Shown here: piece after piece, positions 3,955-14,241 of the stretch | How positions within the stretch are numbered: position 1 is the stretch's first letter | Layout: every line of letters starts with the position of its first letter | Assembly: GCA_002773355.1 (NCBI GenBank) | Contig: PFBL01000008.1 | Location: 374 to 38,613 of the forward strand | Length of the DNA stretch: 38,240 nt | DNA from: Candidatus Kaiserbacteria bacterium CG10_big_fil_rev_8_21_14_0_10_56_12 | GTDB taxonomy: Bacteria > Patescibacteriota > Minisyncoccia > Phycocordibacterales > Phycocordibacteraceae | Direction: 5' to 3' | Made by a program: the position numbers and the translations under genes | The notes under the pieces: model-generated | The model's database searches: none | The model's input: only the letters and a program-made list of their open reading frames with translations | Told to the model about the DNA's origin: nothing

Positions 3955-5553
3955 CTACTCCGAGAGCGGCAGTTCGACGATAAAGCGCGAACCCTTCCCC
4001 GCGCCATCACTCTCGGCTCTAATGGTTCCACTGTGTCCATCCACCACCTGCTTGGCGATGTAGAGTCCGTACCCGGTGGAGTGGACGTTTACCTTGAGAG
4101 AGTCTTTGCCGTGCCCACCCTCGGTGAACAAGCGGCCCATGTCATCCGGCGTGATACCCACGCCACTATCCGCGACAACAATGTGTGCCGTCGCGCCTCG
4201 CTGTGCAAGGGCGACGGTCACGGAGCCCGTCAATGTATAGCGGATCGCGTTATCAACGAGATTACGTACCACGTGGCGACTGATTTTCTCCTCGTCGCCA
4301 ACAAGCATAAGCGGGGCGTCCGAAGGTTTCTCGTCGTAGGTCAGTACGAGCCCATTCTTCTCTGCCTGTGGTCGCAGTGTGTTCACGACAGCACTCACCG
4401 TCCTTCTCAGATCGAATTGCTTCTTGTGGTATGACACGTTCCCCCGCTTAAGATCCGACGCGTCCAGGATGTTGAGCATCATGTCGATACCCATATGCAC
4501 GTCGGTGCGGCCCTGAGTGGCCATAGCCTTGAGCTCGGGGGCTGGCTCGCCATAGTCGCCCTCCTCGATGCTCGAGAAGGCCGCCTCGCCCTTCGCAAGA
4601 TAGGCCTTGACTTCGTGGCTGATAAAAGCAAGCAGTGCCTCCTGCTGAACGTTGATCGACTCGAGCTCGGCCTTGTGATCCTCAATGAGCTCCCGTTCGC
4701 GGATTTCTGCGATCACCGTGCGCACCACAAACACTCCGAGGACAACAATGGCGAGAAAGAATCCGCCGTTTACGGCAAGCTCGGTCTGTCCACTCGAAAA
4801 GACCGCCCGCAGGAGTAACGTAGGCCACAAGAACCCGATAAAGAGCTCTGCCGCAATCAATTTGACGTTGAAGAGTTGCAGACGTCCTACCGCATACGCA
4901 ATCGACGCAATCCAAATCACCATAGCCGCAGGCCCCGCCCAGAGATATTGGAATATGCCGGCAGTGAGGAAGATGTCATTGGTTGTCCCGGCCACGAGCA
5001 GTGTTGTATACGTCCCGATGAGAATCATGCGCAACTGTAGGCGTGACTCGTTCTGTGCTCGTAGATACTTGCGTATGAGTACTACGAACGCGAGTGCAAA
5101 GCCACCCCACAGTTCTATATCAATAAGAAAGCGTAGCGGGCCGAACTCGAAGCCACGCAATCCACTGCCGAGCACGAGCGGGGCCGTGATGATAAGACCC
5201 GTGCCGTAGTGAAGCACTCCCATGAGTACGGTTCCTATCACAAGGAGCGTAGTCTGCCATCGTAGCGAACGTTCCGGAGTGGAGAAGATAAGAGAGAAAT
5301 ATAGATACGCCGCCGCAATACTCGTCCCCGTAAAGTAGAGCGACTTCGCAAAAAAGCTTAGCAGGTCGAGCCGATCAACGGGAACAAGCAAATAGAGCCC
5401 AACTGAGAAGCCCCACGAGGCCGCGGTAGCCGCAAGGAGCGCGAACGCTCGGTTGGTGCGATCTCTAAGATCTTGTGCGAGTATAATGCCTGCGAGGACG
5501 AGATTAATCGCCGCCACGGCCAGCACCACATACGCTTGAAGGTTCGAGATCAT
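3955..5553 (-). CDS. 7TM-domain sensor histidine kinase (HK1)
   Basis: 532 aa. An N-terminal region of about seven TM helices (residues 4-225) resembles the 7TM histidine-kinase input domain, with two more hydrophobic segments (about 235-285) and a coiled coil leading to the phosphoacceptor helix FISHEVKAYLAKGEAAF with His313. The ATPase domain has the N-box NLVDNAIRYT (431-440), DSGVGI (462-467), LFTEGGHG and STGYGLYIAK (492-501), so ATP binding looks intact. The H-box reads HEVK rather than the usual HELRTP. Its ATG overlaps the stop of the upstream kinase by 4 nt (ATGA, 5550-5553), implying translational coupling. An upstream in-frame start at 5616 would overlap HK2 by 67 nt and is less likely. 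No response regulator is adjacent. Last gene of the locus. Confidence 0.88.
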   Translation of the reverse strand: MISNLQAYVVLAVAAINLVLAGIILAQDLRDRTNRAFALLAATAASWGFSVGLYLLVPVDRLDLLSFFAKSLYFTGTSIAAAYLYFSLIFSTPERSLRWQTTLLVIGTVLMGVLHYGTGLIITAPLVLGSGLRGFEFGPLRFLIDIELWGGFALAFVVLIRKYLRAQNESRLQLRMILIGTYTTLLVAGTTNDIFLTAGIFQYLWAGPAAMVIWIASIAYAVGRLQLFNVKLIAAELFIGFLWPTLLLRAVFSSGQTELAVNGGFFLAIVVLGVFVVRTVIAEIRERELIEDHKAELESINVQQEALLAFISHEVKAYLAKGEAAFSSIEEGDYGEPAPELKAMATQGRTDVHMGIDMMLNILDASDLKRGNVSYHKKQFDLRRTVSAVVNTLRPQAEKNGLVLTYDEKPSDAPLMLVGDEEKISRHVVRNLVDNAIRYTLTGSVTVALAQRGATAHIVVADSGVGITPDDMGRLFTEGGHGKDSLKVNVHSTGYGLYIAKQVVDGHSGTIRAESDGAGKGSRFIVELPLSE

Positions 5554-7148
5554 ACGGCAAGTGGGAGAATAATGGTCACGAGCGATCCCTTGTTCTCTCC
5601 ATCGCTCTCGATGCAAATCGAGCCACCCTCTGTCTCGACCACCCGTTTAGCAATGAAGAGGCCGTAGCCCGTCGCATGCACGTTAACCGTGCGCGCGTGC
5701 GCCCCGTACCCGCCCTGTGTAAACAGGCGCGAGAGGTCGCTCTTCGGGATCCCCACGCCCGTATCACGTACCCTGATGCAGGCCGATCCACGCGATTGTT
5801 CCAGGATTACAGTAACGGACCCTTTTGGCGTGTAGACGATAGCGTTCTCGATGATATTTACGAGCACCTGCTTGCGCATCTTGAGCTCATCACCGCGAAC
5901 CACACACACGCTCCCGACGCTGTCTGACGCAGAAAGCGCGAGGCCCTTGTCGTTGGCGAGTGGCCGCAACTCCTCGACGACCTCATAGAGGGTCTTTTTA
6001 AGATCAAAAAGACCACTCTTGAAACTCACGGCACCTTTCTTAAGATTCGAGGCGTCTAGCACATTCATCACGATGTGGACTGCCTGGCGCACGTCCTTGA
6101 GACCGTTCGTCGCCATCGATTGCAGTGCGGGCGAGACCATCCCGTAGTCGCCCTCGGTGATGCCGGCGAAGGCCGCCTCGCTCTTGGCGAAGTAGCCCTT
6201 CACCTCATGGCTAATGAAGTGTAGGAGGGTCTCCTGCTTGCTGTTCATGAGCGACAGCTCTGCCTCCTGCGCCTCGATCAGGTCACGCCGACGCGCGCCA
6301 CGAATAACACCTCGGATAACAAACACTCCAAGGACAAGCACGGCGAGAAAGAGCCCGACGCTGAACAAGAAGTCCTCGTCGTTTTGTGCAAACGCGATGC
6401 GCAGTAGAAGCACGAGCCATAGTGCAATAACCAGTAGCTCTGACGAAACCACCTTCACATTAAAGAGTCGATAGCGTGCTACGGCGAACGCCATGGTCCC
6501 CACCCAGAAAATAATCGCCACCGGCCCAACCCAGATATAGTCAAAGACCCCATAGAAATGTGGCAGCATTAGGTTGAAGATGCCCGCTATGCCGAACGTA
6601 ACGTAGGTACCGATCGCAATATACAAAATTTGCGCACGAATATTGCTTGAAGAATGACGGTACTTCTTAACGAAGATGACAAAAGCGACGAGAAAGCTCG
6701 CCCACACATTAAGATCAAACAATATTTGTAAAGGGCCATAGATGAATCCGCGTACCCCCTCAGCTGAGACAAATGGTCGCACGATAATCAAGGACGTGCC
6801 GAAATCTAATACGAGGAACGCGAGTGTGGGGATGAAGAACGCGAGCGTCTGCCATCGTGGTGACGAATGCTCTCTCTTGAAGACGAAGGCGAAGTAGAGA
6901 AAGGCCGCGGGAATAACACCACCAAAAAAATAGTTTGAACGAGCAATAAGGTCAAACAAAGTGCTCCGCGACGGGTCTACAAGAAAGAAAAATCCTGTCC
7001 CAACCCCCCACAACACCGCAGACACCGACAGCACGGCGAAGTAGCGATTCGCGCGGTCGTCAAAATCCTGCGTTAACACCACCGCTCCAAGAATCAAGTT
7101 AAACACTGCCACCGCGAGGACAGCAATCGTTGGAAGAGACGCGCTCAT
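5550..7148 (-). CDS. 7TM-domain sensor histidine kinase (HK2)
   Basis: 532 aa, paralogous to HK1 and of equal length. About seven TM helices (residues 5-230, ending with the shared ARYRLFNVKV), two more hydrophobic segments (238-285), then FISHEVKGYFAKSEAAF with His314. ATPase motifs: NIIENAIVYTPKG, DTGVGIPKSDLSRLFTQGGYG and ATGYGLFIAKRVV. The product is expected to autophosphorylate and pass phosphate to an unlinked regulator. A TATACT box ends 8 nt before ATG, and AGAGGTG in the same stretch could also act as a weak SD. HK2 can therefore be transcribed independently of HK3, which ends 40 nt upstream. The stop overlaps the HK1 start. Confidence 0.88.
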   Translation of the reverse strand: MSASLPTIAVLAVAVFNLILGAVVLTQDFDDRANRYFAVLSVSAVLWGVGTGFFFLVDPSRSTLFDLIARSNYFFGGVIPAAFLYFAFVFKREHSSPRWQTLAFFIPTLAFLVLDFGTSLIIVRPFVSAEGVRGFIYGPLQILFDLNVWASFLVAFVIFVKKYRHSSSNIRAQILYIAIGTYVTFGIAGIFNLMLPHFYGVFDYIWVGPVAIIFWVGTMAFAVARYRLFNVKVVSSELLVIALWLVLLLRIAFAQNDEDFLFSVGLFLAVLVLGVFVIRGVIRGARRRDLIEAQEAELSLMNSKQETLLHFISHEVKGYFAKSEAAFAGITEGDYGMVSPALQSMATNGLKDVRQAVHIVMNVLDASNLKKGAVSFKSGLFDLKKTLYEVVEELRPLANDKGLALSASDSVGSVCVVRGDELKMRKQVLVNIIENAIVYTPKGSVTVILEQSRGSACIRVRDTGVGIPKSDLSRLFTQGGYGAHARTVNVHATGYGLFIAKRVVETEGGSICIESDGENKGSLVTIILPLAV

Positions 7149-7156
7149 GCACCTCT

Positions 7157-7162
7157 AGTATA
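7157..7162 (-). promoter_or_regulatory. Internal -10 box ahead of HK2
   Basis: TATACT on the minus strand, 8 nt before the HK2 ATG and inside the 40-nt HK3-HK2 gap. It suggests a second, leaderless transcript for HK2 and HK1. Confidence 0.5.
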
Positions 7163-7188
7163 CAATGCGGTGAGATAGAAAATGTTTG

Positions 7189-8820
7189 CTATGCCGTTGC
7201 GGTTGCGGGTTGTTGCGTGGGCGTTGCAGGCGCTACGGGAAACTCTGCGATGAACGTAGAACCCTTCCCTTCGCCCTCGCTTTCTGCACGGATGGTACCG
7301 CCGTGCGCCTCGGTAATGTTCTTGGCGATGTAGAGACCATATCCGGTGGAGTGCGCGTTCACCTTCTGCGAATCTTTGCCGTGCCCACCCTCGGTGAAGA
7401 GCCGCTTCTTGTCCTCGTCGGTGATCCCGATGCCAGAATCCTTGACCGCGAAGATAATACGACCATTCTCATTTTTAAGACTGACGGTAATCGTGCCAGC
7501 GGGCGTATAGTTGATGGCATTGTCTATGAGATTGCGTAGCACATGATCGGCGATCTGTGGCCCGTCTCCGACCATGGTATACGGCCCGGCATCGGTCGCG
7601 AACGTGAGCGTGAGACCCTTCTGCTCGGCACTGAGCTTGCCCTTCTCGACGGCTCCTGTAACGAGCGCCTTGAGGTCGAAGGGCGTTTTGGCATAGGTAA
7701 CGGTACCCTTCTTAAGATTCGACGCCTTCAAGATCTGGGCCACCGAATCAGCGCCAGAGCGACTCTCGAGCAAAGCTCGGGTCACAAAAGGCTTCAGTAC
7801 CTCAGGAAGAGCACCAAAATCACCATCAACAAGCGCGGAGAAGACCCCGGCGTCCTTGGTCAAAAATCCCTTCACTTCGTGCCCAATGAAGTGAATAAGG
7901 GTCTCCTGCCTCGCATTCGTTTCCGCTAGCTCATCACTCAAATTTTTCAAACTAAGCGTATCACGAACAATTCGAATGCTCCCCACCAAAACTATGGTGA
8001 ACGCAGTTACGTTTACGATAATGCCGCTCAGTTGAGTTGAAAACAATATGTTCACGAAACTAAAAACCGTCACCATGAAGCCGAGAAGTGCCGTCGTTAT
8101 TACTTTCAGATTAAACAAATGGTGCTTGTAAATTGCATAAAATGTCATGAAGATAAAGGGAAGCAAAAAAAGCGCCGCGAGAGGAATGAAACTACGGTTC
8201 GAAAAGACATTGGGAAGGACCACATTGAAAATAAGTAGCAGAATCGCCGTCACCGACATGCCAATAAGGAAAACGATTGATTTTGCGCGCTCCACGCTCT
8301 TCTCCTTAAGGGTGTGTAGGTAAAGAGTGGCCAATCCCGCTAAAAGGCAACCAAACGCGACCAGCATAAAAAACACTATGCCAAAGCTGGGAATCGCCCG
8401 GGTGACCTGACCGGGTGGCGCGAGTGGTTCGAGTCCTGAAAAAACTATTGGCGTTAGAGTCAGCAAGGATACTAGTGCTACGACCGGAAGCAAAATTCTG
8501 CGGTACCAGGCAGGCAGTGGTAAGTCATCATGCGGGAAAACATACGCAAGTTTGAAGAAGAAAAACGCGTACCATACTGACAGAAAAAGGTGGGTTCGGA
8601 GCGCCCACAGTGTCGCAGTGGCCGACGTGAAGCGGTATTCGAAGTAGTTAGAGGCGCTCCAAATCACATTGGCAAGCGAAAAAATAAAAAAGGTGCGATT
8701 AGTGATACTTCGCCTATTATTCAAATAGATGATAATGCCCAATAACGCGATACCAGATACAGACACACCAACCATTAGCAGATCAAAATTGATTTGCACC
8801 AGTTCAGTTATTGGGACCAT
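7189..8820 (-). CDS. 7TM-domain sensor histidine kinase (HK3)
   Basis: 543 aa from the chosen ATG at 8820, which sits 19 nt after the nitroreductase stop and gives a first TM helix at about residues 12-33. Longer in-frame starts run back into the nitroreductase gene. It has seven TM helices plus further hydrophobic segments (to about 285), then FIGHEVKGFLTKDAGVF with His314, NLIDNAINYTPAG, DSGIGITDEDKKRLFTEGGHG and STGYGLYIAKNI. The position of the phosphoacceptor His is almost identical in all three kinases. The C-terminal tail APATPTQQPATATA is unique to this copy. The short gap to the upstream enzymes indicates co-transcription, linking the kinases to the biosynthetic-looking genes. Confidence 0.87.
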   Translation of the reverse strand: MVPITELVQINFDLLMVGVSVSGIALLGIIIYLNNRRSITNRTFFIFSLANVIWSASNYFEYRFTSATATLWALRTHLFLSVWYAFFFFKLAYVFPHDDLPLPAWYRRILLPVVALVSLLTLTPIVFSGLEPLAPPGQVTRAIPSFGIVFFMLVAFGCLLAGLATLYLHTLKEKSVERAKSIVFLIGMSVTAILLLIFNVVLPNVFSNRSFIPLAALFLLPFIFMTFYAIYKHHLFNLKVITTALLGFMVTVFSFVNILFSTQLSGIIVNVTAFTIVLVGSIRIVRDTLSLKNLSDELAETNARQETLIHFIGHEVKGFLTKDAGVFSALVDGDFGALPEVLKPFVTRALLESRSGADSVAQILKASNLKKGTVTYAKTPFDLKALVTGAVEKGKLSAEQKGLTLTFATDAGPYTMVGDGPQIADHVLRNLIDNAINYTPAGTITVSLKNENGRIIFAVKDSGIGITDEDKKRLFTEGGHGKDSQKVNAHSTGYGLYIAKNITEAHGGTIRAESEGEGKGSTFIAEFPVAPATPTQQPATATA

Positions 8821-8839
8821 AAAATATATTTCATGTATA

Positions 8840-9910
8840 TCATGCAATTTCAACGATTTCGTGCAGAGGGAATCGGCCAGCCTTCGCCGTGGGAGGAACG
8901 GCTCGGCCGACACGCATAATGAATCCAAGATGCTTGTCGTCAGCATCCATAATTGCAGACGCCTCCTGAACTTGGGCAGCAATCATCTCCCGCTCTCGCC
9001 TCGTAAAAGGGCCCATGCCGTCGTTGGATATTTGTAGTGCTAAAAAAAGCATGCCGGTCAGAGGTTGGCAACTTAGACCAAGTGATGTTGCTGTAAGCCA
9101 GAACCGCTCGATAATCCTGCCCGCAGTGACAAAGTCGAGCGGTTCTGTGCCTGTCATAAGAAATCCAGCCATAGCAGCAGCAGTCCTATTAACTGACGCA
9201 TTCTGCGCTGCGACAACGCGGTTAAGACCCGCCTTACTCAAAATTTTCATTGCAGGCCAGTAACTAAGTAGCGCAAACATCTTTTCCGCGGGTGGCGGTA
9301 ATTCCAGTGTCTTTATATAGAATCCGACTTTCTTTGCATTGTCCTCTTCCTTGCTCCAGCTCACGTGAGTAAAGAAAAAATTGTGCAGTGTCCTGTTTCC
9401 AAGCATCACCTCTTCGTTAGTGGCGCCGATTCGTGCGAGTCTCTTCAGCGTGACTTGGTCGTCGACAAGCACCACGGCGCACCGTTCGTCGCCCACCGCC
9501 ACAAGAACGTTTCGCTCTGCCTTACTAAGTGGGCGAACATCATAAAGCTTGCGGTTTGAAACGCGCTCCTTAATCCAAGGTGCGAGCGGGTGAGGTTCAC
9601 GTTGGCATGATTCGAATGCGAGATTGGCAACGTGCCATTTATTTCTAGACGCGGGAAAATACTCGACATTTGCCATCAGCCCTTCTTTAGAAGCCGCAAT
9701 TGTCATGTTTTCTATCGCAGCACCATTTGCGAGGTACGACGATCGCTGGCCCCAACTATACGCCGATTGGTCTCGGTCTGGCAGAAGGTGCACCTCGACA
9801 GTGGTCCCTTGGCGAACAATAAAATGCCACGGTTGACAATTCTCGCCTGACGGGGCACTGTTGCCCGCTGTAAGAATCCTCTCAAGAGCCGGTGATAAAC
9901 CTTTGATCAT
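8840..9910 (-). CDS. Nitroreductase-family protein (Rv1355c C-terminal-like)
   Basis: 356 aa, longer than a typical 200-aa nitroreductase. The N-terminus has the flavin-binding SAPSGENCQPWHFIV (about residues 17-31). The C-terminal part has a helical FWLTATSLGLSCQPLTGM stretch like the region that completes the FMN site. FMN-dependent members reduce nitro groups or quinones, or oxidise rings such as azolines. It overlaps the ThiF-like gene by 4 nt (ATGA, 9907-9910). The pair has the domain order of the Rv1355c/MoeY-type fusion (ThiF then nitroreductase), here as two genes. No SD is needed if translation is coupled. Substrate unknown; redox tailoring of the ligase/E1 product is inferred. Confidence 0.82.
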   Translation of the reverse strand: MIKGLSPALERILTAGNSAPSGENCQPWHFIVRQGTTVEVHLLPDRDQSAYSWGQRSSYLANGAAIENMTIAASKEGLMANVEYFPASRNKWHVANLAFESCQREPHPLAPWIKERVSNRKLYDVRPLSKAERNVLVAVGDERCAVVLVDDQVTLKRLARIGATNEEVMLGNRTLHNFFFTHVSWSKEEDNAKKVGFYIKTLELPPPAEKMFALLSYWPAMKILSKAGLNRVVAAQNASVNRTAAAMAGFLMTGTEPLDFVTAGRIIERFWLTATSLGLSCQPLTGMLFLALQISNDGMGPFTRREREMIAAQVQEASAIMDADDKHLGFIMRVGRAVPPTAKAGRFPLHEIVEIA

Positions 9911-11082
9911 AGTCCAAATTTTCTGGCAAAGTCCTTTGTCATGTCGCGCCGCCTGGCAACCTCTCGAGCATCGTTGTATCCCTCCAGGAGTTTTTCGTCC
10001 AGCGATACAAGGGCTCGGTTGCTCTCTAGCGGTTGGCCGTTCAGTATTTTCCGCACGCAGTAGGCCACCGCTGCCCCGTTAATGAGCGCTGCGCCACCGA
10101 GCTGTGGCCACGACACGATCGTTTTGCCCATCTCTCCAAGGGATTGCTGCATCCTCTCTGTGATGTTTTCTGGACCAATGTGCTGGGTAATAGTACGTCC
10201 AATCGCGAATTTATCCAGGTTGACCAACTGCTGAAAACTCACAGAACCAAGTCTCCCGTGAAAGTAATCAGGTTGCGGATCAAGGTCGTACCGTTCAATG
10301 TCCACGACTGCATTATCACCATTGTCCGCGGCCATTACAACTGCAATTTTTCGTTTTTTTGACTCCTTTCTGATCAAAAACTTGAAGGCAATATTATCTA
10401 TTTCATCCACAACAATGTCCAAGTTGTCAAAGAATGAATTGATGTTGGCCTCCGTAATACCATCCGGATAAAGCTGTAGCTCCGCGTAGGGATTCATTTC
10501 ATAAATAGTCCTAGCCGCCATTTCAACTTTCAGCATACCGAGCCGGTCCGAACCCGCGAGCACGCGGTTCGTGTTCGAAAGTGCGAGCCTATCCATGTCC
10601 GCCAGTTTCATCCTCATTGCTCCACCGGACAACGTTAGAGCAAGCGCAACAGATGAGCCCACTGATAAGCCCGCTATACCGACCGTCGAGTTATAGAATT
10701 TCTCCTGTTCCTCCTTCGAAATTAAATTCTGGTTCCTCGCGGTACGAACCAGTTGATATTCATCTGCGGGCAAGACGTGGGTGACTAAGTGTCTCCATGG
10801 ATAGTATACCCATCGCCCATGGCCCCAGATCTCCCGCGTACGTGCAAGCCTCGCATAATGTGCCTGAAACGCTTCTTCAAAGCCTGGAGCGTACACCGTT
10901 GCGGGGTGCGTGATTCCAAAGAGTTCTCGTTGTTGTTCTTCAAAATCATCCACGAGTTGGCGAATGTCCCCTGAGCGTACAAGCCCCCTGAATCGCTCCT
11001 GATCGGTCCTTGTGGACAGATCCAAAATGCTGGGTTTTGAAGTGAGTTCCTCGTTCTTGATCGACTGAAACACATCATTCAT
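9907..11082 (-). CDS. ThiF/MoeB/HesA-like E1 adenylyltransferase-fold protein
   Basis: 391 aa. The first 120 residues are a helical extension. The E1 Rossmann domain has GIAGLSVGSSVAL (135-147, nucleotide loop) and ADMDRLALSNTNR (161-173), the typical Asp...Ser-Asn-x-Asn-Arg pattern. Family members adenylate a C-terminal carboxylate of a small protein or peptide. The CxxC zinc pairs of MoeB are not visible, and no clear catalytic Cys loop is seen, as in Rv1355c-like proteins. It lies 42 nt after the PaaK-like ligase stop and overlaps the nitroreductase start, so all three are probably one transcript. The partner substrate is unknown; no small ubiquitin-like protein is visible nearby. Confidence 0.82.
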   Translation of the reverse strand: MNDVFQSIKNEELTSKPSILDLSTRTDQERFRGLVRSGDIRQLVDDFEEQQRELFGITHPATVYAPGFEEAFQAHYARLARTREIWGHGRWVYYPWRHLVTHVLPADEYQLVRTARNQNLISKEEQEKFYNSTVGIAGLSVGSSVALALTLSGGAMRMKLADMDRLALSNTNRVLAGSDRLGMLKVEMAARTIYEMNPYAELQLYPDGITEANINSFFDNLDIVVDEIDNIAFKFLIRKESKKRKIAVVMAADNGDNAVVDIERYDLDPQPDYFHGRLGSVSFQQLVNLDKFAIGRTITQHIGPENITERMQQSLGEMGKTIVSWPQLGGAALINGAAVAYCVRKILNGQPLESNRALVSLDEKLLEGYNDAREVARRRDMTKDFARKFGL

Positions 11083-11124
11083 ATGATACAGATGCTAGCA
11101 TGCTCCTTCCACCCTAGGAATACC

Positions 11125-12648
11125 TTAAGAGCGAATAACCCATTTCTGCTTTATACCCGGTTTAAAATGAGTCGGATCCTCATTTGGCCAAAAAACAATC
11201 CTTGGATGAATGCGCTCTTTTAAGTGTGCGTGGTTATTGCTGTACTCCGCGTTCTTTTGGAGAAGCGAATCGAGCACCCTACGACCAACCTCTCGCTTTA
11301 GATCCTCGCTAGCCGTTTGCATTTTCTTAAGCTCCACGTTTACCTCCAGGAACTGGTTGTGTTGATCATCCGTAACGGTTTGTACGCTGAACTTGCCCGT
11401 TAAATAACCCTGCAGGGATTCGTTTTCTAGTGCGCTTCGAATGTGTTCGGGATATATGATGGCGCCATAAAGTTTTGTTGACAAATCGGAACGGGCGTAC
11501 ACATAAACGAACGGGAGTTTGCGCAAGCAAATTTTCGCGGCCCGTGCCTCACCATCCAGGTCGATCCCGTGCTCCCTAAAAAGAGCCTCAATTTCCGCAT
11601 AGGTAATGACGCCCCCATGGTCGCCAATCGCATATCGAATTAATGGCATCGCACTGTCCCCAGTAATAAGTACTTCGCCATCTGCGTTCGTTTCAAACGT
11701 CATATATGCTGGATGATACTGAGCAAGAGTGGGAAGCTTCGTTAGATTGCCGAATATCTTTTTGAACACGTCTTTATGCTTCAGAGCGAGCCTTCTAACC
11801 AGAATCGCGGTGGGAGTCTCATATGCCATTGCACCAATATCCGCTGTTCCATAAATGTTCAAGGTATCACGCAATATGTCTCTGATGCCTGCTTTTTGTG
11901 CGACATAATCTCTGTACTCCTCTGTAAACGATTCCGCGGCAAACATCAGCCTGATATTCAAGCTCCGAAGATCGATGTGTTCAGCCACTGCGTCGTCTAA
12001 AATGTCCTTAATAAAAGGCGGGTACCCGACGAGAATAGTTTGCTTAAATTTTGGGGCCAGCTCCTTCAGGCCCATTAGGATCTCCGTCTTGTTTACGCCG
12101 GCCGGAAGTATCGATAAAGGGTACCCTCTTTTGCTTGCTAACGCATATGCGCTAAACGTAAGGACCCCACCTATCCATACTCCCATGCCGAAGGCGATGA
12201 TTACCAATGTTGGTGTTTCAGAACTAGGAGGCATCAGTCCCTCAGACAGAAATTGCTCAATCAAGATAGAATACTCCAACTCTAAAGTCTCTGAGCGCTG
12301 AAAATAAGTGGCCTTGCCCGTGGAGCCGGACGTGGAGGAGAACACCGCTGGGCGGACCAGCGTGCCATCCCAGCAGACATCCTTGAGTTCGTGTGTTCTC
12401 AAGTAATTCGCCTTCGACATGACTGGAGCCGTCTTCTGGAAATCATCCCAAGTCTTTATGGTGCGGGGGTCCACTCCTTGATCGGCCAAAAATTGTTTGT
12501 ATGCGGGTACTCGCTCCGACGCTTTTTTAAACAACTTCAACGGATTGGTTCTTCGCATCTTCTCGAGCTGGTCGGCCGTGCCGTGTCGCATCAGCCAAAG
12601 AGCCCGTTCGGGTGATGTCGTCGAATGAAAAGGTTTTTTCTTGAACAT
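11125..12648 (-). CDS. PaaK-like adenylate-forming ligase (phenylacetate-CoA ligase / coenzyme F390 synthetase family)
   Basis: 507 aa. ANL-superfamily enzymes activate a carboxylic acid with ATP and pass the acyl-AMP to CoA, a carrier thiol or an amine. Seen: the phosphate loop SSTSGSTGKATYF (104-116), NIYGTADIGA (adenine/acid pocket), RYAIGDHGG and YARSDLSTKLYG (hinge region), and a C-terminal GIKQKWVIRS with the likely catalytic Lys. The N-terminal PAYKQFLADQG also fits PaaK-type proteins. The first ATG at 12648 follows the dehydrogenase stop by 9 nt, with TAATAC ending 6 nt upstream. The acid substrate cannot be read from sequence. Context suggests an amino- or keto-acid-derived or aryl substrate. 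Confidence 0.85.
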   Translation of the reverse strand: MFKKKPFHSTTSPERALWLMRHGTADQLEKMRRTNPLKLFKKASERVPAYKQFLADQGVDPRTIKTWDDFQKTAPVMSKANYLRTHELKDVCWDGTLVRPAVFSSTSGSTGKATYFQRSETLELEYSILIEQFLSEGLMPPSSETPTLVIIAFGMGVWIGGVLTFSAYALASKRGYPLSILPAGVNKTEILMGLKELAPKFKQTILVGYPPFIKDILDDAVAEHIDLRSLNIRLMFAAESFTEEYRDYVAQKAGIRDILRDTLNIYGTADIGAMAYETPTAILVRRLALKHKDVFKKIFGNLTKLPTLAQYHPAYMTFETNADGEVLITGDSAMPLIRYAIGDHGGVITYAEIEALFREHGIDLDGEARAAKICLRKLPFVYVYARSDLSTKLYGAIIYPEHIRSALENESLQGYLTGKFSVQTVTDDQHNQFLEVNVELKKMQTASEDLKREVGRRVLDSLLQKNAEYSNNHAHLKERIHPRIVFWPNEDPTHFKPGIKQKWVIRS

Positions 12649-12657
12649 GCGTGCGTA

Positions 12658-13713
12658 TTACTTGCTGACGAGCTTCTGCACCATATCGTCGGCAACACGG
12701 CTCGGGGGCAGGTCTAGCTCGTCGGATTTCTCGAGCAAATTCTTTACAGTCTTTTTCACATCATCAACGCGATGTGCGACTCGAGCTCTATTGTACCCGC
12801 CATCATGCAACTCGTCCACCACTGTTATCAAACCCCCGGCGTTAGCGATGTAGTCAGGCACATAGGTGATCCCCTCTTTTTTTAACAGATCGCCATCACT
12901 TGCCGTTGTCAATTGATTGTTCGCGGCACCGCACACAATTTTAGCCGATAGTTTTGAAATAGTCTGCGGTGATAGGTCTCCGCCAAGCGCACAAGGGGCA
13001 AACACGTCCATTTCTTGTAACATTATTTCATCGGGCGACACCAGTATTATTCCTGGCATCTCGTGTGTTGCCTGTCGTGCTTTGCCTTCGTCGATTTCAG
13101 CCGCTATGATCTGGGCGCCCGCGTCATAGAGCATTTTTGCGAGATTTATACCAACGTTGCCAAGCCCCTTGATCGCTATCGTGCGACCATTTATGCACTC
13201 CGAGCCGTAGACATGTTGCAGGGCCGCCTGTATCGACCGGTACACGCTCTGGGCAGCCCAATGCGCGGGCAACCCTCCGACAGACGGACGTCCAATGATG
13301 TTTTTTGACAGCGTGGAGAGCGTCACGATGTCCTCCTCCGTAATCCCGACATCTTCGCCGGTATAAAACACTGCCGCGAGGGCAGACAAGCGCCCTGCAT
13401 ATGCTTGCAGGTATTCCTTGCTCTTGTGAGCGGGCGATCCCTTCGCGTCTGCCGCTGCTATCAGCACCGCCTTGCCCCCTCCGTACGGCACTCCTGCAAG
13501 CGCGCATTTGTATGTCATCGCACGCGACAGCCGCAGTGCATCCCTCAGTGCGTCCTCTTCAGATTCATAGTGCGCAAAGCGCGTGCCCCCCACCGCAACG
13601 CCTGTGGTGGTGTTATGAATAGCAATGTAACCCCTCAGCCCTGTCTTTTTATCAAATATGCGTGCTATCAGCTCATGCTCGTCAAACTCTGGCAGACCCT
13701 CGACAGCAATCAT
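12658..13713 (-). CDS. Leu/Glu/Phe/Val dehydrogenase family enzyme
   Basis: 351 aa, the length of leucine/valine/phenylalanine dehydrogenases rather than the longer (about 420-450 aa) GDHs. It interconverts an L-amino acid and a 2-oxo acid with NAD(P). Seen: TTGVAVGGTRF, the substrate-binding MTYKCALAGVPYGGGKAV with Lys69 and catalytic Lys81, and the Rossmann IAIKGLGNVGINLAK (179-193). Substrate choice among branched or aromatic amino acids is not decidable here. An extended -10 TGG-TATAAT ends 8 nt before ATG, a likely leaderless start and the main promoter of the downstream ligase-ThiF-nitroreductase-kinase series. Such a gene next to an acid-activating ligase fits supply of an amino or keto acid. 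Confidence 0.9.
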   Translation of the reverse strand: MIAVEGLPEFDEHELIARIFDKKTGLRGYIAIHNTTTGVAVGGTRFAHYESEEDALRDALRLSRAMTYKCALAGVPYGGGKAVLIAAADAKGSPAHKSKEYLQAYAGRLSALAAVFYTGEDVGITEEDIVTLSTLSKNIIGRPSVGGLPAHWAAQSVYRSIQAALQHVYGSECINGRTIAIKGLGNVGINLAKMLYDAGAQIIAAEIDEGKARQATHEMPGIILVSPDEIMLQEMDVFAPCALGGDLSPQTISKLSAKIVCGAANNQLTTASDGDLLKKEGITYVPDYIANAGGLITVVDELHDGGYNRARVAHRVDDVKKTVKNLLEKSDELDLPPSRVADDMVQKLVSK

Positions 13714-13721
13714 AGTAGGTG

Positions 13722-13730
13722 ATTATACCA
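13722..13730 (-). promoter_or_regulatory. Extended -10 promoter of the dehydrogenase-ligase-kinase locus
   Basis: TGG-TATAAT on the minus strand, the best -10 in this part of the window, ending 8 nt before the dehydrogenase ATG at 13713. Confidence 0.6.
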
Positions 13731-13764: not shown

Positions 13765-14241
13765 TCACACCTCTTGATCTCTAATGCGCGACGCGAGTGT
13801 AGCGAGCTCCGCATCATCAGCGCGTCCAGAGTCGTGCGACGAGATGTAGCCTTGATACGTATCAAAATACGTATCAATGGTGGCCTTGTGCTGTTTCCAG
13901 TCGCCGGCCGCCGTCCCATGCATGGGGAAGAGTTTGGCGTGTGCATGGTCCACGCCAAAGCCCTCGAGGATCATCCCGGTGCGTCCCACGTCGTCGAAGG
14001 CGGCGTCGAGACGCTTCGCCACATTGCGCGCCGCGAGGACTAGGTTGCTTATCACAGCATCGGGCAGGGCGAAGATATAGCTCGGATAATGTGCCTTTGG
14101 CACCACCACAGAGAAGCCCTCCGTGTTTGGAAAGATGGAGAGGAACGCGAGGTGCTTCTCGTCCTCCCAGATTGTATGCGAGGGAGCGTCGCCCGACACA
14201 ATACGACAGAATATACAATCTTTCTCTCTGTTCATACTCAT
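13765..14241 (-). CDS. HIT-family nucleotide-binding hydrolase
   Basis: 158 aa. The family hydrolyses or transfers nucleoside phosphates (AMP-lysine, dinucleoside polyphosphates). It has the N-terminal zinc-type CIFCRIVSGDAPSHTIWED, the FLSIFPNTEGFSVVVPKAHYPS stretch and the histidine triad region GVDHAHAKLFPMH. The triad is H-x-H-x-K rather than H-x-H-x-H, with a later His, so the activity may be altered. ATG 14241 is used here; the second Met at 14235 (MNREKDCIF) is equally typical and lies 8 nt after a weak TACCCT box. It is 51 nt upstream of the dehydrogenase, which has its own promoter, so membership of the same operon is uncertain. Confidence 0.85.
   Translation of the reverse strand: MSMNREKDCIFCRIVSGDAPSHTIWEDEKHLAFLSIFPNTEGFSVVVPKAHYPSYIFALPDAVISNLVLAARNVAKRLDAAFDDVGRTGMILEGFGVDHAHAKLFPMHGTAAGDWKQHKATIDTYFDTYQGYISSHDSGRADDAELATLASRIRDQEV

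Follow-up and report, generated by a model that had tools for sequence, protein, structure and literature searches.

A putative oxazolone-type signal synthesis and sensing locus in Patescibacteria

A biosynthetic gene cassette of Patescibacteria is consistently followed by 7TM histidine kinases, and we consider it slightly better than even (a probability of roughly 0.55) that the two form a locus for signal synthesis and sensing with oxazolone-type chemistry. The cassette lies in a 38,240-nt stretch of DNA (the window) on a 38.6-kb contig of a Candidatus Kaiserbacteria genome (632 kb, 97% complete). An interpretation of these genes as a signal synthesis and sensing locus had been proposed in a sequence-only reading of the window, and is supported here as far as genomics can support it.

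Seven intact, co-directional genes lie head to tail on the minus strand between positions 13713 and 3955, in the order ELFV dehydrogenase (DH), PaaK-like ligase, ThiF protein, nitroreductase (NTR), and three 7TM histidine kinases (HK1 to HK3) (Table 1). Spacing is tight (DH-PaaK 9 nt, PaaK-ThiF 42 nt, which is the largest gap, NTR-HK1 19 nt, and HK1-HK2 40 nt), and ATGA overlaps join ThiF to NTR (9910-9907) and HK2 to HK3 (5553-5550). This confirms the compact single-strand arrangement with two overlaps that was described earlier, including the start of the kinase series 19 nt after the nitroreductase (NTR stop at 8840, HK1 ATG at 8820). The earlier coordinates and gaps were right, whereas two start codons required correction: HK1 begins at ATG 8820 rather than at the TTG of a longer ORF (8982), and HK3 at ATG 5553, not at 5616. 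ThiF, NTR, the ELFV dehydrogenase, HisKA_7TM, and HATPase_c all passed Pfam cut-offs, and the named close homologues all came from Patescibacteria-type MAGs, among them Kaiserbacteria, Taylorbacteria, and Liptonbacteria. Enzymes and kinases may share one common transcript. Promoter-like TATA boxes precede both DH and HK2, and HK2 and HK3 might have their own transcript from the latter; however, both -10 box candidates are weak, as neither was listed by a two-hexamer promoter scan.

Table 1. Features of the enzyme-kinase locus (positions in the window)
Feature	Position	Strand	Evidence
ELFV amino-acid dehydrogenase (DH), Phe/Trp-dehydrogenase-like	12658..13713	-	PF02812/PF00208 over cut-off
PaaK-like ANL adenylating ligase	11125..12648	-	NCBIfam PaaK, PDB PaaK, AF2 model, conserved motifs
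ThiF/E1-like ATP-dependent cyclase candidate	9907..11082	-	PF00899 85 bits; NF005901 N-terminal half
Nitroreductase-fold flavin-dependent oxidase candidate (NTR)	8840..9910	-	PF00881; NF005901 C-terminal half
7TM histidine kinase 1 (HK1)	7189..8820	-	HisKA_7TM + HATPase_c; H, N, G boxes intact
7TM histidine kinase 2 (HK2)	5550..7148	-	HisKA_7TM + HATPase_c; sister of HK3
7TM histidine kinase 3 (HK3)	3955..5553	-	HisKA_7TM + HATPase_c; H, N, G boxes intact
Possible -10 box (TATAAT) immediately 5' of DH ATG	13722..13727	-	Sequence reading; weak
Possible -10 box (TATACT) 5' of HK2	7157..7162	-	Sequence reading; weak

The pairing of enzymes and kinases extends well beyond this genome. An initial set of 51 loci, assembled from relatives and a scan of GTDB contigs, contained PaaK in 48, nitroreductase in 43, and a 7TM kinase in 37, many of the others being cut by contig ends. 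To this we added a phylum-wide sample that was not chosen by closeness, in which a ThiF profile search of 380 genomes gave 46 matches above 200 bits, and 40 of these loci were read. PaaK was present in 36 of the 40, and in 33 a related 7TM kinase was encoded on the strand of ThiF, no more than 5 kb away from it. The seven kinase-less loci fall into two groups: three (L157, L179, and L193) run out of contig after 1.4 to 2.5 kb of downstream sequence, with L157 breaking off within a kinase, and the other four (L167, L168, L169, and L174) belong to a type in which PaaK is missing too. Synthase genes conserved beside a membrane sensor kinase, as in quorum-sensing pairs, were thus found at every testable locus: those with PaaK and an uncut downstream contig had a related kinase within 5 kb in 33 out of 33 cases, across 21 GTDB families. 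Relatives have on average about 0.8 of these kinases in a 0.7-Mb genome, from which we estimate that chance alone would place one this close at roughly 1% of loci. The prediction that enzymes and kinases would be neighbors in related genomes was therefore not refuted. Cassette content does vary. NTR is missing or displaced at some loci, three of which (L158, L186, and L190) have an alpha/beta hydrolase instead, and some loci have methyltransferases or an alpha/beta hydrolase added before the kinase. Downstream of the kinase, some relatives encode an ABC exporter (L031, L048, and L076).

Profile searches indicate that ThiF and NTR each correspond to one half of a fused protein family, Rv1355c. 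ThiF matched positions 5-349 of the 722-position model NF005901 with 323 bits, a single-half score that falls below the 476-bit cut-off for the whole fusion, and NTR matched positions 375-720 with 161 bits (Acg-type 135 bits, and a match to Acg 2ymv), so that together they cover nearly the whole model length. The AF2 model of ThiF (pLDDT 92) has an E1-like fold, and its best solved match was AclA of Tenacibaculum discolor with bound substrate, followed by ThiF and MoeB. Its nucleotide site is intact (D162, D164, R173, K185, and D229 are at least 95% conserved), as expected of a ThiF-like cyclase of the Rv1355c group, and the NTR, an FDO-type nitroreductase adjoining ThiF, has a motif (APS..N.QPW) and two arginines (R116 and R120) that are invariant in 40/40 sequences. 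Sulfur-carrier or ubiquitin-like thiolation chemistry is unlikely for ThiF, because the CxxC zinc motif was found in 0 of 51 ThiF homologues and the single cysteine of the window protein is kept in only 26 of the 51.

Rv1355c is the mycobacterial TrzS, a characterized N-acyl-tryptophan oxazolone cyclase/desaturase (PMC12856293). TrzS carries out ATP-dependent cyclization of N-acyl-tryptophan, followed by ring desaturation with FMN and O2, and TyzB and TyzC perform the same chemistry on N-acyl-tyrosine as separate proteins (PMC12856293, PMC10404671). The window locus resembles TrzAS and TyzACB of Mycobacterium and OxzAB of P. rubra in having a ThiF-type cyclase adjacent or fused to a nitroreductase-superfamily flavin oxidase (PMC12856293, PMC10404671), with both window proteins falling in the same family as Rv1355c by profile. 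In contrast to those systems, it has a PaaK-like ligase and an aromatic deaminating enzyme in place of a FeeM-type N-acyltransferase, and its enzymes are linked to 7TM histidine kinases. No FeeM/TyzA-type N-acyl amino acid synthase was found in the locus, and PF21926 is absent from the genome; the classic Tyz/Trz pathway with a FeeM acyltransferase was rejected on this basis.

The PaaK-like ligase is too diverged to give a significant ligase match in Pfam, but was recognized by NCBIfam PaaK (about 41 bits) and PaaK in the PDB (E 6e-7). Its AF2 model (pLDDT 89) matched PaaK crystal structures with an E value of about 1e-22, and the matches comprised PaaK1/2, including PaaK1 with ATP or phenylacetyl-adenylate, BT_0428, and the PaaK-family ligases NatL2 (salicylic acid bound) and ClxA (aminohydroxybenzoic acid bound). 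The P-loop (SGSTG), A8 hinge (RY..GD), and A10 lysine (K500) are conserved, in keeping with the fold and motifs of PaaK-type ANL enzymes.

The first gene of the cassette (before PaaK, or inside the cassette) encodes one of three unrelated enzymes, namely DH, an aminotransferase, or an aromatic amino-acid lyase. Among the 40 phylum loci, DH was present in 15 and the lyase in 8, with none having both. The aminotransferase (class I/II, HisC-like, 245 bits, below cut-off) was found at ten loci of the first set; weak aminotransferase matches in the phylum sample that lay on the other strand were left out of cassette membership. The lyase matched PF00221 with 530 bits, and the best NCBIfam match of these proteins was the flexirubin tyrosine ammonia-lyase FlxA (550-602 bits, cut-off 700). 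DH itself matched NCBIfam ScyB with 279 bits, below the cut-off of 600, and its catalytic K81 and D121 are invariant in a 12-member set. The DH substrate is probably aromatic, because its signature (TG.D/NAGGL) is that of the TrpDH structure 5b37, whereas LeuDH structures have TA.D/NAGGV. A further family considered as a dehydrogenase replacement (F7) was rejected, as the sequence is a DnaJ adjoining DnaK, an ordinary neighborhood. All three alternating enzymes can deaminate aromatic amino acids, and the likely substrate of the PaaK-like enzyme is therefore the aromatic acid so formed, arylpyruvate or cinnamate. Lyase-type cassettes share the pairing of aromatic lyase and PaaK-like ligase with the flexirubin module (FlxA tyrosine ammonia-lyase and FlxY PaaK-like ligase), but differ from it in that the pair is followed by ThiF, NTR, and a kinase, and the match of the window PaaK to FlxY is weak (29 bits). 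The alternation of these deaminating enzymes, together with the characterized ThiF and nitroreductase oxazolone enzymes (PMC10404671, PMC12856293), agrees with the earlier suggestion of an amino- or aryl-acid-derived product.

The 632-kb genome encodes no HisKA_7TM proteins other than the three of this locus. Each has the N-terminal 7TM region (PF16927) and kinase core (HATPase_c) of the HisKA_7TM family, over Pfam cut-offs, and an intact HEVK phosphoacceptor motif, although the DHp region falls below Pfam HisKA detection despite the intact H-box. In the part of PMC5847659 considered here, HisKA_7TM histidine kinases are noted in archaea and no ligand is given; the window kinases differ in being tied to a biosynthetic cassette. 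Tree construction grouped HK1 with the single cassette kinase of relatives, as its orthologue, and placed HK2 and HK3 as sisters. Pairwise identities are 21-43% for the sensor regions (HK2 has 21% to HK1 and 43% to HK3) compared with 42-50% for the kinase regions, and the window therefore has three diverged sensors. A single clade of cassette kinases was rejected by the tree (about 11 label changes), in which close relatives of cassette kinases sit behind other genes. In ThiF-less genomes, related kinases directly follow PF12147-type methyltransferases (L083, L090, L094, L096, and L105), a 548-aa unknown protein (L085 and L097), or a 272-aa unknown protein (L120). Hence, judging from gene neighborhoods, the kinase chassis looks modular and re-used behind other candidate synthases. 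Across 53 loci, distances between kinase sensors correlated with those between NTRs (r 0.46, Mantel p 0.001, partial r 0.43; stricter domain cuts, with cruder cuts giving r 0.65), and more so than with those of their own kinase domains (r 0.24). Such co-variation is expected if the sensor follows the final product, although adjacency or segment exchange could also cause it.

No response regulator is encoded beside the window cassette. The genome has four histidine kinases (a remaining ATPase-domain match is GyrB-like) and two receivers, both stand-alone CheY-like proteins. One receiver lies behind a CHASE4 kinase; the second is part of a type IV pilus operon (pilM-N-O-B-receiver-T-C-pilins-pilD), where it is flanked by pilB and pilT. 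In five related genomes with the cassette (G011, G013, G015, G019, and G024), no histidine kinase other than that of the cassette was found, gyrase-type match aside, and the sole receiver is the orthologue of the pilB-pilT receiver. G013 is 100% complete; G019 has one extra weak kinase match, to a protein lacking an H-box, and in G015 the cassette kinase shares a separate contig end with NTR. The pilB-pilT receiver, whose phosphorylation residues are intact in 13/13 aligned sequences, is the only candidate partner left in these five genomes, so by elimination the cassette kinases would act on it. For this pilus link taken alone, we put the chances at somewhat short of even. The receiver is also present in cassette-less genomes and in two genomes (87 and 90% complete) where no kinase was found, and is thus not exclusive to the cassette pathway; G023 has it along with a same-type kinase behind another gene. 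A different receiver, often encoded divergently, was found beside the cassette in 15 of the 40 phylum loci, from many families.

Building on the observed gene content, motifs, linkage, and kinase and receiver counts, we propose the following pathway. The dehydrogenase would convert an aromatic amino acid to an arylpyruvate, a role that in relatives would be taken by the aminotransferase, or by the tyrosine-ammonia-lyase-like enzyme yielding a cinnamic-type acid. The PaaK-like ligase would then adenylate the acid and couple it to an amino acid, standing in for the N-acyltransferase; this amide-forming step is assigned to PaaK by inference, and the lack of a FeeM-type enzyme in locus and genome counts against the proposal. 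By analogy with characterized homologues, ThiF would adenylate the carboxylate of the N-acyl amino acid and close the oxazolone ring, and the nitroreductase-fold flavoprotein would desaturate it. The product may be sensed by the 7TM kinases, activated or inhibited by binding, which would phosphorylate the stand-alone receiver encoded between pilB and pilT, with type IV pilus extension or retraction as the predicted output. Desaturation by TrzS uses O2, possibly scarce in groundwater habitats, which is a point against the proposal, as are the scatter of cassette kinases in the tree and the occurrence of the pilB-pilT receiver outside the cassette pathway.

The product of ThiF and NTR could instead be a different compound, such as an aryl-amino-acid amide or another ring, that is still sensed by the kinases. 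This is a possible, although unlikely, alternative to which several observations lend weight: the loss, movement, or hydrolase replacement of NTR in some loci, a donor-acyl enzyme unlike that of Tyz/Trz, and the stieleriacines, kyonggic acids, and thalassotalic acids, for which no oxazolones were observed despite ThiF/NTR genes (PMC12479983). ThiF/NTR clusters of the latter kind are from Planctomycetota and others, and known clusters with oxazolones are from mycobacteria and P. rubra. Against this, the window proteins span nearly the whole Rv1355c model, and the characterized member of that family makes an oxazolone. A rather improbable reading is that the metabolite acts on others, as an antibiotic, a host-directed compound, or a membrane lipid-like one, while the kinases sense another cue (e.g., the host) and control its production or use. 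The ABC exporter after the kinase in three loci would suit such a role, yet the near-constant presence of the kinase in the operon-like unit and the sensor-NTR co-variation speak against it, and as stand-alone CheY-like proteins the genome's two receivers are ill-suited to controlling transcription directly.

In TOMM clusters, too, an E1-like fold occurs together with an FMN dehydrogenase fold, and the ThiF model also matched PaaA, a ThiF-like enzyme of pantocin biosynthesis. A peptide-derived azole or other RiPP pathway is nevertheless very improbable, as the YcaO cyclodehydratase (PF02624) is absent from the genome, no precursor-like ORF was noticed in the tight operon, and PaaK and aromatic deaminases have no role in such a pathway. 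Finally, tight gene packing in small genomes could bring enzymes and kinases together by chance or vertical synteny with no functional link. We give this almost no credence, given that most flanking genes change from locus to locus around a retained cassette, that the cassette is patchy within the genus of the window, and that the pairing occurs in 21 families.

Synthase-kinase pairs have been proposed previously for CPR bacteria from homologues of known quorum-sensing proteins (Bernard et al. 2020: 51 CqsA/CqsS, 18 LuxI-homologue/kinase, and 3 PpyS-homologue/kinase pairs; PMC7567580). The locus described here shares with these pairs a predicted signal synthase adjoining a transmembrane sensor kinase in CPR genomes, but its enzymes fall outside the listed reference families of that study, the text of which does not include ThiF (PMC7567580). 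No report of this gene combination in Patescibacteria was found in open, published papers. Hence, the enzyme-kinase combination appears to be undescribed, while ThiF/NTR oxazolone clusters and CPR synthase-kinase pairs are each already known.

The authors of the oxazolone-cluster studies considered the structures signal-like but noted no receptor, and the physiological role of the mycobacterial ThiF/nitroreductase oxazolones has been stated as unresolved (PMC12856293). The phylum-wide pairing of oxazolone-type enzymes with a sensor kinase offers a direct, testable case for such compounds as signals. More tentatively, and with the odds against it, Patescibacteria may operate a self-contained circuit of chemical communication unlike known quorum sensing, in which an oxazolone-type signal made from scavenged aromatic amino acids is perceived by 7TM kinases, pili are a direct post-translational output, and the kinase chassis is re-used elsewhere. 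In the five small genomes this circuit would be the only histidine kinase-to-receiver path found, which would make for an unusually easy in vitro test. Type IV pili are the attachment organelle, used to grip other cells, and the locus would thus offer specific candidates for a signal, its receptor, and its output (pili) in a group whose cell interactions are poorly understood.

The cassette dehydrogenase in the window is preceded by a gene for a HIT-domain protein, which is not kept at this position in most relatives. At three related loci, the usual position of the nitroreductase, between ThiF and the kinase, is occupied by an alpha/beta hydrolase, and a ThiF-family subtype without PaaK or a kinase was found at four others (L167, L168, L169 and L174), two of which carry an Asp/Glu racemase-type gene near ThiF. 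Within their type IV pilus operons, the L101 and L107-L118 genomes keep the order pilB, stand-alone CheY-like receiver (the proposed output partner of the cassette kinases), pilT.

Coordinates of features in the window and at related patescibacterial loci (L-numbers)
Feature	Locus	Position	Remark
HIT-domain protein	window	13765-14241	same strand as dehydrogenase, 51 nt upstream of it
CheY-like receiver	L101	5271-5666	between pilB and pilT
Alpha/beta hydrolase	L158	10160-11032	between ThiF and kinase
Alpha/beta hydrolase	L186	9980-10855	between ThiF and kinase
Alpha/beta hydrolase	L190	8350-9234	between ThiF and kinase
272-aa protein, family unknown	L120	7748-8566	immediately 5' of histidine kinase
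Response regulator-distant ThiF-7TM kinase	L098	5318-9752	
Response regulator-distant ThiF-7TM kinase	L099	6300-10809	

Among relatives that lack ThiF and encode a related 7TM kinase, a PF12147-type methyltransferase gene immediately precedes this kinase at five loci (L083, L090, L094, L096 and L105), and a 548-aa protein with no Pfam match holds the same position at L085 and L097; both are candidates for further signal synthases. The 272-aa protein adjoins the only histidine kinase of G023, a 100%-complete genome without ThiF. Two genomes encode a distant ThiF protein with a response regulator on one side and a 7TM kinase on the other, an arrangement that possibly represents a second ThiF-kinase system, different from the cassette.
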